NCBI RefSeq assembly: GCF_000826145.2
Contig: NZ_LN651336.1
Span: forward strand, 229,501-293,500
Length of the DNA stretch: 64,000 bases
Direction of reading: 5' to 3'
Source: Sporosarcina koreensis
GTDB taxonomy: Bacteria > Bacillota > Bacilli > Bacillales_A > Planococcaceae
Made by a program: the position numbers and the translations under genes. This document shows, in pieces, positions 11,451 through 64,000 of this stretch (position 1 is the stretch's first letter; every line of letters starts with the position of its first letter). The notes under the pieces were generated by a model, which saw only the letters and a program-made list of their open reading frames with translations, ran no database searches and was not told the DNA's origin.

Positions 11451-12107
11451 TCACCAGAGAGGCTCTTTGTCGGGATCATCGAGCTGCAGGTCGACATAAT
11501 AAGGAATCAATACAGTCATGAAGATGAAGTACAGCCCGAGGAATACCAGCGTTCCATACAAACTGGCGTCAAACAGATTGGATACCGGAATCAGCAGCGG
11601 GATGAACAGATTGAACAGAGCTGTCTTCCACCGCGATTTCTTCGTCTGGTAATTGGCTGTGCCACAATGTGGGCAGTCCACTTTTTTCCCTCTCCAAAAT
11701 TTCTTCAATGCCAGCCTGCGGCTCCATACTGTCCCGCAATTCGGACAGACCGGCAGTCCTTGCCTCTGCTTCTTCAGGTTCCATTTCAGAAGTGCATACA
11801 CACTTACGAATAGGAGCACGAGCAAGACAGTCTTGACAGAATCATAGCCGAGCAGCTGAATAAGCTGTTCCGTGGTACTCCCGGCAGCTTGATGGGATTT
11901 CGGAGATGAGGGAGACTGCAGGCCGATTCCTGCCAGCACAACCGCCAGAAGGATGGCTGCCACGAGGACTGTCCGATAGCGCCAGACATAAGAGACCCGC
12001 TTTTTGGGCGCCTCCTCCTTTACGCGCCGGATCATCCGCTTCCGGTCATCGTCCGAGAAAGTGATTGTCTCCAATTGCTCCTTGAGCCGCTGTTCAATCG
12101 AATCCAT
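11451..12107 (-). CDS. CXXC-zinc-ribbon membrane protein, probable anti-sigma partner (TIGR04104-like)
   Basis: The 218-residue protein has a cytoplasmic N-terminus (MDSIEQRLKEQLETITFSDD), a membrane segment near 45-62, and another near 92-106. A rubredoxin-like knuckle pair follows (CPNCG near 120 and CPHCG near 144), then two more C-terminal membrane segments. The spacing of the two CXXC motifs and the operon position fit the cxxc_20_cxxc family. The gene overlaps the sigma factor gene by 14 bases, so tight co-expression as an anti-sigma factor is likely but inferred. AGGAGGG precedes the ATG. Confidence 0.75.
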   Translation of the reverse strand: MDSIEQRLKEQLETITFSDDDRKRMIRRVKEEAPKKRVSYVWRYRTVLVAAILLAVVLAGIGLQSPSSPKSHQAAGSTTEQLIQLLGYDSVKTVLLVLLFVSVYALLKWNLKKQRQGLPVCPNCGTVWSRRLALKKFWRGKKVDCPHCGTANYQTKKSRWKTALFNLFIPLLIPVSNLFDASLYGTLVFLGLYFIFMTVLIPYYVDLQLDDPDKEPLW

Positions 12108-41724: not shown

Positions 41725-42831
41725 TTATCGGAGAGCTTTCGCCAGCACATGCAGGTTGTCTGACATGACACTGATATAGGTCGCTCCGCTGTTCTGTTCG
41801 TCTTCACTGAGCCCTTCCAGAGTATGGAGGACGGCGGTCTTCGCCTGCAGCTCCGCGGCCAGTGTCTCCGCGACTTTCGATGATGCGTTCTCCTCGAAGA
41901 AGATCGTATGGATATCATGATGCTCTGCGAACTCTTTCAGTTCTTTCAATTTTTTTGCACTCGGTTCATTGTCAGGCGACAGACCGGCGATTGGAACTTG
42001 TGTCAGACCATAATCCGCTGCCACGTACCCGAAAGCTGCGTGCTGGGTGATGATCTCTTTGTTGCTGACGGAAGACAGTGTCTCTTGGTACTCCTTATCA
42101 AGCGCCTTCAATTTCTTCACGAATTCATCTCTGTTCTTCTCATAATCGCTTTTGTGGTCAGGATCAATTTCACCGAGACGGGCAGCGATCGTTTCCACTT
42201 CGGTGATCGCCCGGGCAGGACTCAGCCAGAGATGCGGATCGAAATCATGGTGATGGCCTTCATGCTCATGATCTTCGTCTTCATGGTCGTGCGCCTCACC
42301 TTCATGGGCGCCGGCTTCCTCTCCATGCTCATGACCTTCGCCTTCATGGCTGTGTTCATCACTACCGTGGTCATAATCTTCTCCCTCATGTTCCCGGGCA
42401 TCTCTATCGTGATCATGATCGTCATACTCATGCTCGTGCGCTTCCCCGGTGAATGGCAGCAGCTCGATCCCTTCCGAAGCGTCGATCAGTTCGACGGAGG
42501 ATCCGACCGCCCCCTCAATATCATGGATCCACGTTTCCATATTTTCATTGTTATAGACCAGTGCGTCTGCGTCCTGGATCTCCTTCAGATCTTTCGCCGC
42601 CGGCTCCCAGTCATGCGGTTCCACGGATGCCGGAATCAGCATCGTGACATCGGCATTGTCCCCCACCACTTCTTTCGTGAACTCATACATCGGATAAAAA
42701 CTCGTCACGATCGACAGTTTCGCTTCATGACCTTCATCAACCGCCGCTTTCTGTTTCTCAACGTCCTGCTGGCAGCCTCCGAGGAAGACCGCTCCTGCTG
42801 CAAGTGTCAAAGCTATCCATACTTTATTCAT
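41725..42831 (-). CDS. znuA: Zinc-binding lipoprotein (ZnuA/AdcA)
   Basis: The 368-residue lipoprotein has lipobox LGGC (Cys near 20). The cluster A-I fold shows zinc ligands in SVEPHDWEP, DPHLWLSP, ITQHAAFGYVAADYG and IFFEENASS. Between the first two lies a very long His/Asp/Glu-rich loop (about residues 135-195, with many HEH and HDH units), typical of zinc-specific binding proteins and used to gather zinc. AGGAGAG precedes the ATG. A near-perfect Zur box is about 65 bases upstream. It delivers zinc to ZnuBC at the outer membrane face. Confidence 0.95.
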   Translation of the reverse strand: MNKVWIALTLAAGAVFLGGCQQDVEKQKAAVDEGHEAKLSIVTSFYPMYEFTKEVVGDNADVTMLIPASVEPHDWEPAAKDLKEIQDADALVYNNENMETWIHDIEGAVGSSVELIDASEGIELLPFTGEAHEHEYDDHDHDRDAREHEGEDYDHGSDEHSHEGEGHEHGEEAGAHEGEAHDHEDEDHEHEGHHHDFDPHLWLSPARAITEVETIAARLGEIDPDHKSDYEKNRDEFVKKLKALDKEYQETLSSVSNKEIITQHAAFGYVAADYGLTQVPIAGLSPDNEPSAKKLKELKEFAEHHDIHTIFFEENASSKVAETLAAELQAKTAVLHTLEGLSEDEQNSGATYISVMSDNLHVLAKALR

Positions 42832-43174: not shown

Positions 43175-43250
43175 TCAACGATTTTTTTCTTACATACTTT
43201 GATGAGCTGGTCCGTACTGAGTTCCTCTGCCAGCCGGAAGGATCAGTTTG

Positions 43251-43382
43251 CTCATAAACCTTGGCGTTCCGCTCATAAACTGCACAAAGTGCCCATAAAA
43301 GCTCTCCCTTCGCTCATAAACTTGCAATAGTGCTCATAAAACCAGAATTCCGCTCATAAACCACCCTCCAGCGCTCATAACT
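43251..43382. repeat. Periodic array: seven CTCATAAAC cores every 20-21 bases
   Basis: The core starts at 43251, 43272, 43292 (CCCATAAAA), 43313, 43333, 43353 and 43374, so spacings are 21, 20, 21, 20, 20, 21 (mean 20.5, two helical turns). A G precedes six of the cores (GCTCATAAA). The 11-12 bases between the cores are not conserved. On the other strand the core is GTTTATGAG. The 423-base gap 43176-43598 holds no supported gene; to the right of the array only a terminator is seen. Confidence 0.9.
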
Positions 43383-60044: not shown

Positions 60045-60401
60045 TCACTTCACTTTCCGTACAACGAGCACCCACCAGATCAGGACGAACTGGAGGGGCA
60101 GACGCAGCCAGAGGGCGGCCGGAGGCAAGTCGAACTTCTCCGGCACGAGGGCCATATAGATGTTGACCGGGAATACGAGTACCAGAAACACAGCAATCCA
60201 TATCCCTGCCGGCCGGCGTGACCGCTTCCACAGCAGCGCGAGCGCGAGGAGAATTTCCACGATGCCTGACGCATAGACGATGGCCGGCCGGAACGGCACC
60301 CATTCGGGTATCGCCTGGATGAAGAACGAATCGAGCAGGAAATGCCCGATCCCGGCACCCGCGAAAAGCAGGCAGAATAGGTACAGCAAAATTCGTTTCA
60401 T
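60045..60401 (-). CDS. DoxX family membrane protein
   Basis: The 118-residue protein has four membrane helices. GAGIGHFLLDSFFIQAIPEWVPFRPAIVYASGIVEILLALALL is the DoxX/MAUG-like pattern (GIGHF, P.W.P, G..E...A). Members of the family take part in quinone-, thiol- or oxidative-stress complexes, and some are CatD-like. GGGAGG precedes the ATG. It stands alone between two terminator or array regions. Confidence 0.87.
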   Translation of the reverse strand: MKRILLYLFCLLFAGAGIGHFLLDSFFIQAIPEWVPFRPAIVYASGIVEILLALALLWKRSRRPAGIWIAVFLVLVFPVNIYMALVPEKFDLPPAALWLRLPLQFVLIWWVLVVRKVK

Positions 60402-60566: not shown

Positions 60567-60713
60567 TTTCGGGTCTCCACAAGGGCATATCGGACATTTG
60601 GTGTGAAGTATCGGACAGTTTCTGTGAAGTATCGGACAGTTGCTCAGACATATCGGACAAAATGTGTGAAGTATCGGACACTTCGCCGAATTTATCGGCA
60701 TCCAGTCACAATT
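60567..60713. repeat. Periodic array: six TATCGGACA cores at exact 21-base spacing
   Basis: The core starts at 60588, 60609, 60630, 60651, 60672 and 60693 (the last as TATCGGCAT), all exactly 21 apart, with a degenerate TTTCGGGTC in register at 60567. Between cores a GTGTGAAG or CTGTGAAG segment recurs in three units. Because 21 is a multiple of three, every frame shows a seven-residue repeat (for example LSDTSQK or KYRTVSV), which is an artefact. The gap 60402-60887 holds no supported gene. Confidence 0.92.
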
Positions 60714-60835
60714 TAAGGGCGAATCTGCACAGAGAATGCCTTATCGCCCTGGGAATTGGCAGGATCCTGTCGACACAACCAGGCGCTTGATCGTATACCG
60801 GTCATCCGTCATCGAGGTGCTGCGCCGGCAACAGA

Positions 60836-60868
60836 AAAGGGTATCCGGAATAAGCCGGATACCCCTTC
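60836..60868 (-). terminator. Terminator of the namZ gene
   Basis: GGGTATCCGG and CCGGATACCC pair around a 6-base loop; on the minus strand TTTTCTGTTG follows. Confidence 0.85.
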
Positions 60869-60887
60869 TTAATACGCGATTCTGTTC

Positions 60888-62147
60888 TCAATAGAGCAGA
60901 TACTGTTTCCGCACTTTCTTGAACTGCTTCAGCTCTTTCTCCCACCGTTTCTGCATCTCTTCGACCGTCATCCCCTGCTCGATCCCTTCGCGGACCCAGC
61001 CGTTGCCGATCAGTTTGTCGAAGAACGGGGTGAGCTGGACTTGCTCCGGATACAGATCCTTCAGCGTCTTCACGATATGAAGGCCCGTGACGACCGGATC
61101 ATACTTGTCGTAATCGGTGATATGGACCTGGATGCCGTGCGACAGTTTGCCGCTGTGCTTCGAGAACGTCGGTGTGAACGACGCCGCGCGGAATTGGACG
61201 CCCGGCAGGTTCAGCTGATTCAGCTGATGGACGAGCTGCGGGCTGCTGACGAACGGCGCGCCGATCAGCTCGAACGGTTTCGTCGTGCCGCGTCCTTCCG
61301 ATACGTTCGTCCCTTCGATCAAGGCAGCACCCGGATAGGCGAACGCCGTATCGAGTGTTGGCATGTTTGGCGACGGCAGGACGAACGGTAATCCTGTCTT
61401 GCTGAAATCGTCTTCCCGGTCCCATCCTTTCATCTTGACGACCTTCAGATCCGCGCTGATGCCGAATTCCTTGTTGAACAACTGCGCAAGCTCCCCGACC
61501 GTCATGCCGTGACGCAGTGGAATCGGGTACTGGCCGACGAACGAGGCGAATTCCGGATCGAGCACCGGCCCTTCGACCTTCTCCCCGCCGAGCGGATTCG
61601 GACGGTCGAGGACGATGAACGGAATCGCTTTTTCCTTCGCTGCCTCCATCGACAGTGCCATCGTGTAGATATACGTATAGAAACGGGTGCCGACGTCCTG
61701 GATATCGAACACAAGCGCATCGATGCCGTCCAGCATCTCAGGCGTCGGTTTCCGCGTCTTGCCATACAGGCTGTAGACCGGGAGTCCGGTCACTTCATCG
61801 ATGTAATACTCGACGTAGGCGCCCGCCTGCGCATCGCCGCGCACGCCATGCTCCGGACCGTACAACGCTTTCAGCTCGATGTCCGGATCATTGTTCAGCA
61901 GATCGACGACACTGTTCAGGCTGCTGTCCACGCCGGTCGGATTGGTGATCAATCCGACCCGCTTGCCTTTCAGCAGCTTCTTCTCTTTTTTCAGCAGCAC
62001 TTCCGCACCGACCGTCACCGTCTGCCCGCCTTTGCCATGCCCTTTGTGCTTCTTGCTGCCGTTCCAGTACTGGTTATCCGCCAGTGCGGCTGTGCACGTC
62101 GTCATGATCAGCAGTGCTGTCAGCACCATCATCATCCACTTTTTCAT
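60888..62147 (-). CDS. namZ: Exo-beta-N-acetylmuramidase NamZ (DUF1343, YbbC-like)
   Basis: The 419-residue protein has a signal peptide (MKKWMMMVLTALLIMTTCTAALA), a basic linker, then the DUF1343 domain: GKRVGLITNPTGVDSSLNSVVDLL, LYGPEHGVRGDAQAG, DALVFDIQDVGTRFYTYIYTM, and DRPNPLGGEKVEGPVLD. It removes terminal N-acetylmuramic acid from peptidoglycan fragments outside the cell. ATG 62147 has GGGAG about 8 bases ahead. It lies 13 bases after the nagZ stop, and NagZ-NamZ act in sequence in cell-wall recycling. Confidence 0.93.
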   Translation of the reverse strand: MKKWMMMVLTALLIMTTCTAALADNQYWNGSKKHKGHGKGGQTVTVGAEVLLKKEKKLLKGKRVGLITNPTGVDSSLNSVVDLLNNDPDIELKALYGPEHGVRGDAQAGAYVEYYIDEVTGLPVYSLYGKTRKPTPEMLDGIDALVFDIQDVGTRFYTYIYTMALSMEAAKEKAIPFIVLDRPNPLGGEKVEGPVLDPEFASFVGQYPIPLRHGMTVGELAQLFNKEFGISADLKVVKMKGWDREDDFSKTGLPFVLPSPNMPTLDTAFAYPGAALIEGTNVSEGRGTTKPFELIGAPFVSSPQLVHQLNQLNLPGVQFRAASFTPTFSKHSGKLSHGIQVHITDYDKYDPVVTGLHIVKTLKDLYPEQVQLTPFFDKLIGNGWVREGIEQGMTVEEMQKRWEKELKQFKKVRKQYLLY

Positions 62148-62160
62148 CGTACCGCTCCCT

Positions 62161-64000
62161 TCAGTTGTCATACGTCAGTCCATGGCCGAACGGATACAGC
62201 GTCCCGCCCGACGGATCCGGAATCGTCACCGGCAGTTTGCCCTGTGGTGAGATCTCACCGAATATGGCGGATGCGGCCGCGTCAAAGCTCGCCGAACGGA
62301 AACTGTACTGCGCGAGATACGCGTCGACTTCCGGATACGCCATGATGTCATACGGGTTCCGCACGCCGACCGCGATGACCGGCACGTCCGTCTTGGCCAT
62401 CAATCCATTCACCATCTGCATCTGCGGATGGGATGGCGCACGGCCCGCCACCGTTGAAGTTGTCGTGCCTGCGATGATGGCGGACACGTCCGCAAGCTGT
62501 GCATATTGCTCATCCGTCAGCGGTTCCCCTGTCTTGATGAGCACCGTGTTGGTATGGCGCTTCTTCACAGAGGTGTATAGATCATCGATATACGAACTGC
62601 CGACAACCGCGATCTTGTCCGTCGCTTCAGGCACAAGCGGCAAGACCGACTCATTCTTTACAAGCGTCACGGATTTCTCCGCCACCTCCCGCTCGACCTG
62701 CTTATGCGCATCGGAACCGACTGTCTTTTCAGCGTTGGCGATCACTGATTCGATCGGTGCCGGCAATTCTTCCTTCACGATACCGCGTTTCAGTTTGAGT
62801 GACAGAATCCGCTCCACGGACTGCTCGATGCGCTGCTCCGAAATGTCACCGGAACGTACAGCGCCCAACAGACCGTCCGCAACACTTTCCAATCCGACTG
62901 GCATGAGGACGAGATCCGTACCTGCCTGTACTGCACGGATGACTGCATCGACCGGTCCGAAGTGTTCGACGATGGCTCCCATATTGAGGGCATCCGTCGT
63001 GATCAGTCCTTCATATCCCATCTCCTCGCGCATCAGTTCCGTCAGTACTTTGTGCGAAAGTGTCGCCGGCAGGGTGATCTCCGTGCCGTCCTTCTTCGAG
63101 ATCACCGTCGTGCCGTCTATCTTCGGGAACGTCACGTGCGCTGTCATGATCGCATCGACTCCCGCATCCATCGCCTGCTGGAATGGATACAGCTCGACCT
63201 GTTTCAGCCGTTCCTTGTCATACGGTACTTCTGGAAGTCCGAGGTGGGAGTCGACTGCCGTATCCCCGTGGCCCGGGAAGTGCTTCGCCGTCCCGGATGT
63301 CCCGGTTCCCTGAAGGCCGTTCGTGTAAGCAACCCCGAGCTTGGCCGTAAGTTCCGGATCCTCGCTGAACGAACGGACGCCGATGACCGGATTGTCCGGG
63401 TTATTGTTGATATCGAACGATGGGGCGAAGTTCATGTTGATGCCGAGTGCATGCAGTTCCTCACCGATCGCCTGACCGACCTGGTGTGCAAGCTCTTCAC
63501 TGCGCGCTGCACCGAGTGCCATGTTGCCCGGCATATCCGTCCCGGACTGGAGACGCGTCACGATGCCGCCTTCCTGGTCGATCGACATGAGGAGGCCGTA
63601 TTTTTCGGAAGCCTTCTGATAATCCGCGACCAGTCTTGCGGTCTGCTCCGTCGTTACGACATTCTCGCGGAAGAGGATCACACCGCCAAGATGATGTTTC
63701 TTGACAAGTGCTTCGATTTCCGGCGTCAGTTCGGTGACATTCTTGCCGTTCATTGTCCGGAAATCAGGCATGAGCATCTGCCCGACTTTCTCTTCCAGCG
63801 TCATGCCGCGGATTGCGTTCGGCACGAGGTCATACTGCTTGCCGTGCATCTTCTTCACTTCGTACGACAGCGAGAATTTCCCGTGTTGCTTGCCTGAGTT
63901 TTTCACCGGCTTTGCGATGACGAGGACCCGGTCCGTCAGCCGCCCGTCCCGCACCAGAATCGTCGAAGCGCCGGGTTTTCCGGTCATCTTGACAACGCCG
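62161..64000 (-). CDS. nagZ: Beta-N-acetylglucosaminidase NagZ-like (GH3), 5' end outside window
   Basis: More than 610 residues are visible and the frame continues past base 64000 (GVVKMTGKPGAST reads through), so the start lies outside the window. The GH3 domain has QEGGIVTRLQ, KHFPGHGDTAVDSHLGLP with the His-Asp catalytic loop of NagZ, and the nucleophile Asp in LITTDALNM. A second C-terminal alpha/beta domain ends DPSGGTLYPFGHGLTYDN, as in B. subtilis NagZ. The region before about residue 55 may be part of an N-terminal extracellular domain. It removes GlcNAc from muropeptides before NamZ acts. Confidence 0.93.
   Translation of the reverse strand, partial: GVVKMTGKPGASTILVRDGRLTDRVLVIAKPVKNSGKQHGKFSLSYEVKKMHGKQYDLVPNAIRGMTLEEKVGQMLMPDFRTMNGKNVTELTPEIEALVKKHHLGGVILFRENVVTTEQTARLVADYQKASEKYGLLMSIDQEGGIVTRLQSGTDMPGNMALGAARSEELAHQVGQAIGEELHALGINMNFAPSFDINNNPDNPVIGVRSFSEDPELTAKLGVAYTNGLQGTGTSGTAKHFPGHGDTAVDSHLGLPEVPYDKERLKQVELYPFQQAMDAGVDAIMTAHVTFPKIDGTTVISKKDGTEITLPATLSHKVLTELMREEMGYEGLITTDALNMGAIVEHFGPVDAVIRAVQAGTDLVLMPVGLESVADGLLGAVRSGDISEQRIEQSVERILSLKLKRGIVKEELPAPIESVIANAEKTVGSDAHKQVEREVAEKSVTLVKNESVLPLVPEATDKIAVVGSSYIDDLYTSVKKRHTNTVLIKTGEPLTDEQYAQLADVSAIIAGTTTSTVAGRAPSHPQMQMVNGLMAKTDVPVIAVGVRNPYDIMAYPEVDAYLAQYSFRSASFDAAASAIFGEISPQGKLPVTIPDPSGGTLYPFGHGLTYDN

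Follow-up and report, generated by a model that had tools for sequence, protein, structure and literature searches.

Intergenic arrays of short cores spaced two helical turns apart in Sporosarcina koreensis and other Planococcaceae

Introduction

Several kinds of short repeated DNA element invite comparison with the arrays described here. Enterobacterial BIMEs are built from palindromes in alternating orientation that are bound by gyrase or IHF, plasmid iterons are direct repeats of about 19-22 bp that are bound on one face of the helix, and DNA uptake sequences occur singly or as inverted pairs in many intergenic copies with lineage-specific dialects. Other families are tied to transposase genes: in the available parts of the work of Di Nocera et al. 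(2013, PMC3733652), REPs are described as palindromes of 20-40 bp and TIRtrons as RAYT-like genes flanked by long inverted repeats, while the available parts of PMC6006769 attribute HTH-like C-terminal domains to RAYT subclass 2.1, the subclass matched in the present case. Those parts of the two sources make no mention of attached two-turn arrays. A literature search for such arrays returned no description among the matches listed, and the listed publications containing the 9-mer core discussed below were, by title, not about repeats of this kind.

Here, we analyse an array in a 64,000-nucleotide stretch (the window) of the 2.91-Mb draft genome of S. koreensis (G000), compare it with a second strain of the same species (G226) and follow its relatives through the family and beyond. 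Beyond what a preliminary description of the window had claimed, the analysis revealed constraint on the cores, a conserved terminus and, in one related genome (G210), fusion to half of a RAYT-linked palindrome.

Results

Structure of the array in the window

The array lies between two predicted genes and consists of five cores followed by a terminal unit. The features of the window to which we refer are:

60588..60715, + strand: element of five TATCGGACA cores at 21 bp plus terminal unit, from sequence and motif scan
60588..60596, + strand: core 1, TATCGGACA, exact
60609..60617, + strand: core 2, TATCGGACA, exact
60630..60638, + strand: core 3, TATCGGACA, exact
60651..60659, + strand: core 4, TATCGGACA, exact
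60672..60680, + strand: core 5, TATCGGACA, exact
60693..60715, + strand: terminal unit TATCGGCATCCAGTCACAATTTA (G000:C3:290193-290215), one mismatch to the pattern
60045..60401, - strand: neighbouring gene, ORF of 118 aa, 5' end towards the array
60888..62171, - strand: neighbouring gene, ORF of 427 aa, 3' end towards the array
60836..60870, - strand: terminator-like hairpin of the 60888-62171 gene, seen by eye between gene and array
43250..43381, + strand: second two-turn array, core GCTCATAAA, spacings 20 or 21, from motif scan

The preliminary description had counted six exact cores at a 21-base spacing; all spacings are indeed 21 bp, but the exact cores number five. Position 60693, in phase with the cores, carries TATCGGCAT, the start of the terminal unit, and position 60567 carries TTTCGGGTC, a weak core match. 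The 12-nt linkers are, in order, TTTGGTGTGAAG, GTTTCTGTGAAG, GTTGCTCAGACA, AAATGTGTGAAG and CTTCGCCGAATT, three of the five containing TGTGAAG. Within the 64-kb window the 9-mer TATCGGACA was found six times against 0.46 expected, the sixth copy being located outside the array at 11970 on the minus strand, and none of 300 windows simulated from a first-order Markov model contained any 9-mer in four equally spaced copies.

The array at 43250-43381, to which the preliminary description had ascribed the same period, is real and likewise two-turn, with seven GCTCATAAA-like cores, of which five are exact and two carry a single mismatch; its spacing, however, is not exactly 21, running 21, 20, 21, 20, 20 and 21 in order. 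Cores with CTCATA or GCTCA recur among the sampled relatives. A further period-21 repeat at 42256-42348 of the window resembles true coding sequence, namely a His-rich stretch of a minus-strand gene predicted to be lipoprotein-like.

Copies in the Sporosarcina koreensis genome

The draft genome holds about 70 elements of the window-array type. Pairs of the form TATCGGACA-N12-TATCGGACA occur 203 times (147 on the plus and 56 on the minus strand; reversed control 0), and the terminal unit, conserved across the genome as TATCGGCATCCRGRCACAATTCA, is matched 69 times with at most three mismatches (control 0). Further copies, on whose existence the preliminary description had staked its reading, are thus abundant. 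The stretches fetched from this genome contain 68 elements with at least three units, usually in the form of five cores plus terminal unit (six in-phase units in 41/68, five in 18/68), which occur singly or as pairs or triplets with a conserved spacer and in their majority lie within C4:1.26-1.54 Mb. A profile of 319 units gave 1.67-2.0 bits at core positions and 0.02-1.43 bits at linker positions. The second strain, G226, carries 162 core pairs and 62 terminal units.

Two details of the arrangement were observed in passing. At four loci (L031, L036, L037, L044) the spacer that joins paired arrays is conserved, with a length of roughly 85-105 bp and the sequence GGCTTGTGCTCGC...CGCTCGTTT...ACAAGCC, and some arrays show a 42-bp higher-order repeat with two alternating linker types (L221 7551-7898; G000:C4:1463226-1463444).

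Core and linker divergence between two strains

Alignment of 240 kb of G000 with 220 kb of G226 revealed that cores are far more conserved than linkers between these two strains, in the one region compared. In blocks of less than 95% identity, cores differed at 32/717 sites (4.5%) and linkers at 307/930 (33%) when annotated on G000, and at 29/662 and 290/870, respectively, when annotated on G226; in blocks of at least 95% identity either annotation gave 3/603 for cores and 22/804 for linkers. As second codon positions in the same low-identity blocks differed by 4.9% and third positions by 28.9%, core divergence is comparable to that of protein-changing sites, and linker divergence is no lower than that of silent ones. 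Per-position divergence rises from 0.06 to 0.35 between unit positions 9 and 10, the loosest core sites being positions 7 (0.10) and 9 (0.06). Neighbouring arrays have linkers in common, and local copying can therefore blur orthology in this comparison.

Genomic position and stability

Gene contexts in G000 were taken from a simple gene caller. Of 45 array loci, 43 were placed between two predicted genes and two overlapped a predicted gene, so that the question raised in the preliminary description, whether such arrays are always intergenic, can be answered as nearly, although not strictly. Convergent, divergent and tandem contexts number 13, 11 and 19 and are similar to the background (58, 65 and 149), and the distance to a 3' gene end is 56-154 bp in 39/45 cases; arrays hence occupy the space between terminator and promoter irrespective of gene direction.

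Several other explanations of the placement were considered and dropped. A GC-skew flip near C4:1.56 Mb had suggested an origin or terminus marker, but dnaA lies elsewhere; since it is located at 2.397 Mb in G226, where the dense array cluster extends over about 1.74-1.95 Mb, the cluster coincides with neither origin nor terminus. Polar orientation was rejected as well, because blocks of one orientation exist, yet a single arm contains both orientations, and no recurring neighbour gene of the arrays was apparent by eye.

In the aligned region, both flanks could be located in G226 for 22 of the 28 G000 array loci, and none of these 22 is a clean empty site. Two of the G000 loci have 79-87 bp between the flanks in G226 and no exact core pair there. 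The array of the window is absent from G226; as one neighbouring gene also differs, this locus does not represent a clean empty site either. The two strains are about 83% identical between G000:C4:1406000-1490000 and G226:C1:1790000-1880000, as compared with about 97% outside, and several whole operons in this region are present in only one of them.

Core dialects and period across the family

Exact TATCGGACA pairs were detected in 5/261 genomes of the family (control: single matches in two). Among the matches listed, TATCGGACA arrays also occur in named Fredinandcohnia, Ornithinibacillus and several Bacillus and Ureibacillus records, while several listed records of other phyla contain only isolated pairs or unrelated-looking repeats. 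The pattern of four ATCGG at 21-bp steps identified arrays in 56/261 family genomes, many with a core of their own, e.g. AATCGGCCA, TTTATCGGAA, TATCGGCGATT or AATCGGTCTCTTA; these lineage-specific cores have ATCGG in common. Linkers are shared between G233 and Ureibacillus acetophenoni, which makes Planococcaceae the probable identity of the family. The reversed control matched 22/261 family genomes, up to 33 times, and these matches are probably further array classes with other cores; GGCTA at 21-bp steps gave 8 to 33 matches in four genomes (G218, G161, G198, G235). The preliminary description had looked to Bacillales as a whole, which proved too wide: ATCGG arrays were found in 0/269 sampled Bacilli genomes outside the family, although the named records mentioned above contain TATCGGACA arrays.

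A survey that used no motif sampled 20 family genomes in 40 stretches of 20 kb (800 kb in total) and returned 24 arrays. The period was 20 or 21 in 20 of them and 40 in one; three of the 20 are inside open frames of at least 200 codons and could be coding. The corresponding outgroup survey of 757 kb (20 genomes from 19 other Bacilli families; one 2.7-kb stretch consisting of N) returned two arrays, with periods 26 and 52, and 4 Mb of shuffled sequence one array locus. At three looser settings with frames of at least 150 codons removed, 17/19, 17/18 and 15/16 family arrays had a period of 20 or 21, against 0/4, 0/2 and 0/1 in the other families. Within the family, the same 20-21 bp period is hence combined with unrelated cores, in agreement with the proposal made for the window of one kind of two-turn element with several sequence classes.

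Outside the family, Fredinandcohnia and Bacillus sp. REN16 (L066, L113, L065) have tandem arrays in which a terminator-like hairpin (GCCTTCCGG...CCGGAAGGC) is repeated along with the array. A long array of Ornithinibacillus caprae (L083 5042-5556) lies between two same-strand genes, which we take to be neighbouring genes of the purine pathway, and may for this reason be situated inside an operon.

A RAYT-type transposase gene and its palindrome

G000 and G226 each possess a single Y1_Tnp gene, adjoined by a gene that is presumably comM. The best match of the G000 protein is the NCBIfam REP-associated tyrosine transposase (REP_Tyr_transpos) at 74.7 bits, below the cut-off of 80. A DnaA-like HTH on the transposase was considered and rejected, as Y1_Tnp is the only Pfam match of the G000 protein; for the G226 protein Pfam gives one Y1_Tnp and a sub-threshold TROVE match. 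In both strains the gene is surrounded by copies of a palindrome about 70 bp long. Matches to the palindrome arm concentrate within C4:1.50-1.55 Mb in G000 (9/15) and within 1.89-1.94 Mb in G226 (14/17), and in the latter strain 39/62 element ends fall within 200 kb of the Y1_Tnp gene, a span that makes up 13% of the genome.

In G210, array and palindrome are physically joined. This genome has 95 palindrome-arm matches, 43 of which lie on the 61.7-kb contig C12 that carries its single Y1_Tnp gene, and a palindrome with 30/36 positions paired begins about 10 bp past the stop of this gene. In 9/15 G210 arrays, the palindrome arm is found exactly 23 bp beyond the last ATCGG, and the arm was matched at 27 or more of 34 positions in 7 of 11 G210 arrays shown. 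The array end GACACNATTC is the left half of the palindrome centre. G210 contains a fixed junction between the array and half of the palindrome adjoining a RAYT-type Y1 transposase gene.

At the threshold used, the right palindrome arm was found downstream of 0/60 scored elements in G000 and 0/37 in G226; a resemblance noted by eye at G000 C4:1506833 is below this threshold. The arrays of Fredinandcohnia and Ornithinibacillus lack this palindrome, and tblastn at 1e-5 detected no RAYT-like gene in the fetched Bacillaceae loci (8-kb pieces), the only matches being those of G000 and G226. Across the genus, Y1_Tnp is present in 16/22 genomes with ATCGG arrays and in 35/46 without, i.e. there is no association, and G190, with 76 array matches, yields none to Y1_Tnp.

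Discussion

We lean towards the view that the array is a non-coding dispersed element whose five 9-bp cores offer a DNA-binding protein a row of sites along one helical face. According to this reading, a protein would bind the cores, probably cooperatively along one DNA face; the elements would have spread through the genome by being copied within a RAYT-linked repeat, the G000 copies would later have lost the right palindrome arm, and the host may gain from the arrays, e.g. in chromosome organisation, beyond tolerating them.

The period of 21, a multiple of 3, raises the alternative of a translated heptad-repeat protein, and two minus-strand frames are indeed open in 66/68 and 65/68 G000 elements (stops in 2 and 3, respectively). 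The remaining four frames, however, contain stops in 15-60 of the 68, and a 60-residue heptad piece from one frame, compared with about 5.8 billion proteins, yielded one candidate and no homologue at E 0.01. Since spacings of 19, 20 and 22 occur inside arrays of other genera and whole array classes have period 20, what is preserved is not a reading frame, and linker divergence rates between G000 and G226 show no triplet pattern. The array thus displays no conserved reading frame of the kind expected of a heptad-protein gene, which we regard as an extremely improbable explanation; the seven-residue repeats that the preliminary description had seen in all frames are present in several, and its assignment of the array to intergenic, non-gene DNA is borne out. 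That the arrays act as an RNA element, i.e. a leader, tail or structured RNA, is very improbable: lying near gene ends, they could belong to 3' tails where no terminator intervenes, but the window array is preceded by the terminator-like hairpin, in 14/19 tandem contexts the arrays run opposite to the upstream gene, linker hairpins are not in excess (four-pair stems 15.2% versus 15.8% in column-shuffled linkers) and window positions 40000-64000 have no Rfam match. Operators of an ordinary transcription factor regulating the neighbouring genes would be in keeping with direct repeats two turns apart, which fit cooperative regulators, and with the 11/43 loci between divergent genes; we nevertheless consider them quite improbable, as arrays are not enriched upstream of genes, most lie just past gene ends and the neighbouring genes appear unrelated by eye.

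Two further alternatives concern the mobility of the DNA. Gene cassettes could be exchanged at array boundaries, either by homologous recombination of one array with another or by a dedicated enzyme: at eight array loci G000 and G226 differ by 1.8-7.6 kb beside the array, with arrays on both sides in three, long runs of arrays share one orientation, and the surrounding region has the reduced identity noted above. Five of the eight differences, however, have an array at just one of their two sides, some synteny breaks are away from arrays, and at the kb-scale differences compared the array linkers differ between strains, so that a recent hybrid junction is not visible. Because most intergenic space in this region contains arrays, coincidence of arrays and breakpoints is likely in any case, and exchange points are an improbable explanation. 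The arrays might instead be a selfish or neutral interspersed repeat, passengers devoid of host function whose cores are identical through recent copying. Dispersed homologous copies with a common end, the sporadic distribution (56/261 genomes), the free intergenic location regardless of gene direction and the linkers shared by neighbouring arrays all accord with such a repeat. Recent copying, however, would keep cores and linkers alike, whereas orthologous linkers have diverged by about a third and cores have not, and no clean empty site was encountered among the loci with both flanks located (22/28); we therefore judge this alternative unlikely.

Extending the protein-bound reading to the family, we put forward tentatively, as possible rather than probable, that chromosome-wide two-turn arrays of the Planococcaceae type combine unrelated cores with one helical period, each class being maintained by selection and recognised by an array-binding protein of its own, and that they constitute an addressing system whose dialect is rewritten between species via RAYT-linked palindrome copying. 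If a protein reads the arrays, the whole family would possess a chromosome-scale DNA-binding system that genome annotation either misses or logs as spurious short proteins. As core dialects differ between close relatives, such a system would allow a binding specificity and hundreds of sites to be watched changing together. The G210 junction links the arrays to RAYT transposases, whose usefulness to the host has long been in question, and this link could be tested in a few strains.

Among the described systems, DNA uptake sequences resemble the arrays in that a short word recurs at many intergenic places in lineage-specific dialects, but occur singly or as inverted pairs, as opposed to phased rows of five. 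Plasmid iterons likewise are direct repeats near 19-22 bp bound on one helix face, a binding that would here be of the same kind; they belong, however, to one origin locus, as against some 70 chromosomal places with no replication gene beside the arrays, and an initiator gene with a nearby origin is missing from the picture, dnaA of G226 being at 2.397 Mb and the cluster at about 1.74-1.95 Mb. No attC-like hairpin, a feature of integron cassettes, was recognised in the elements by eye. BIMEs share the mosaic build and the position between transcription units, singly or in tandem with a conserved spacer, but are made of palindromes in alternating orientation. TIRtrons/TIRYTs, as described in the available parts of PMC3733652, offer a RAYT-like gene flanked by a self-complementary repeat family, which corresponds to the 70-bp palindrome here; such flanking of the gene by an inverted repeat dispersed as a family is seen for the G210 palindrome (one flank read closely) and not for the array, and those parts include neither an attached direct-repeat array nor Bacilli. 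REPs and REPtrons differ in that their conserved part is a hairpin, whereas the cores are direct repeats two turns apart with linkers that have no excess of hairpins, and in that the occurrence of RAYT is not associated with that of arrays across the genus; no GTAG or CGTC end tag was noticed by eye in the 68 G000 elements. With REPs and REPtrons the arrays nonetheless share a short, non-coding, extragenic element in many copies, which cluster close to a single-copy Y1 transposase gene and, in G210, are fused to half of the palindrome that adjoins this gene.
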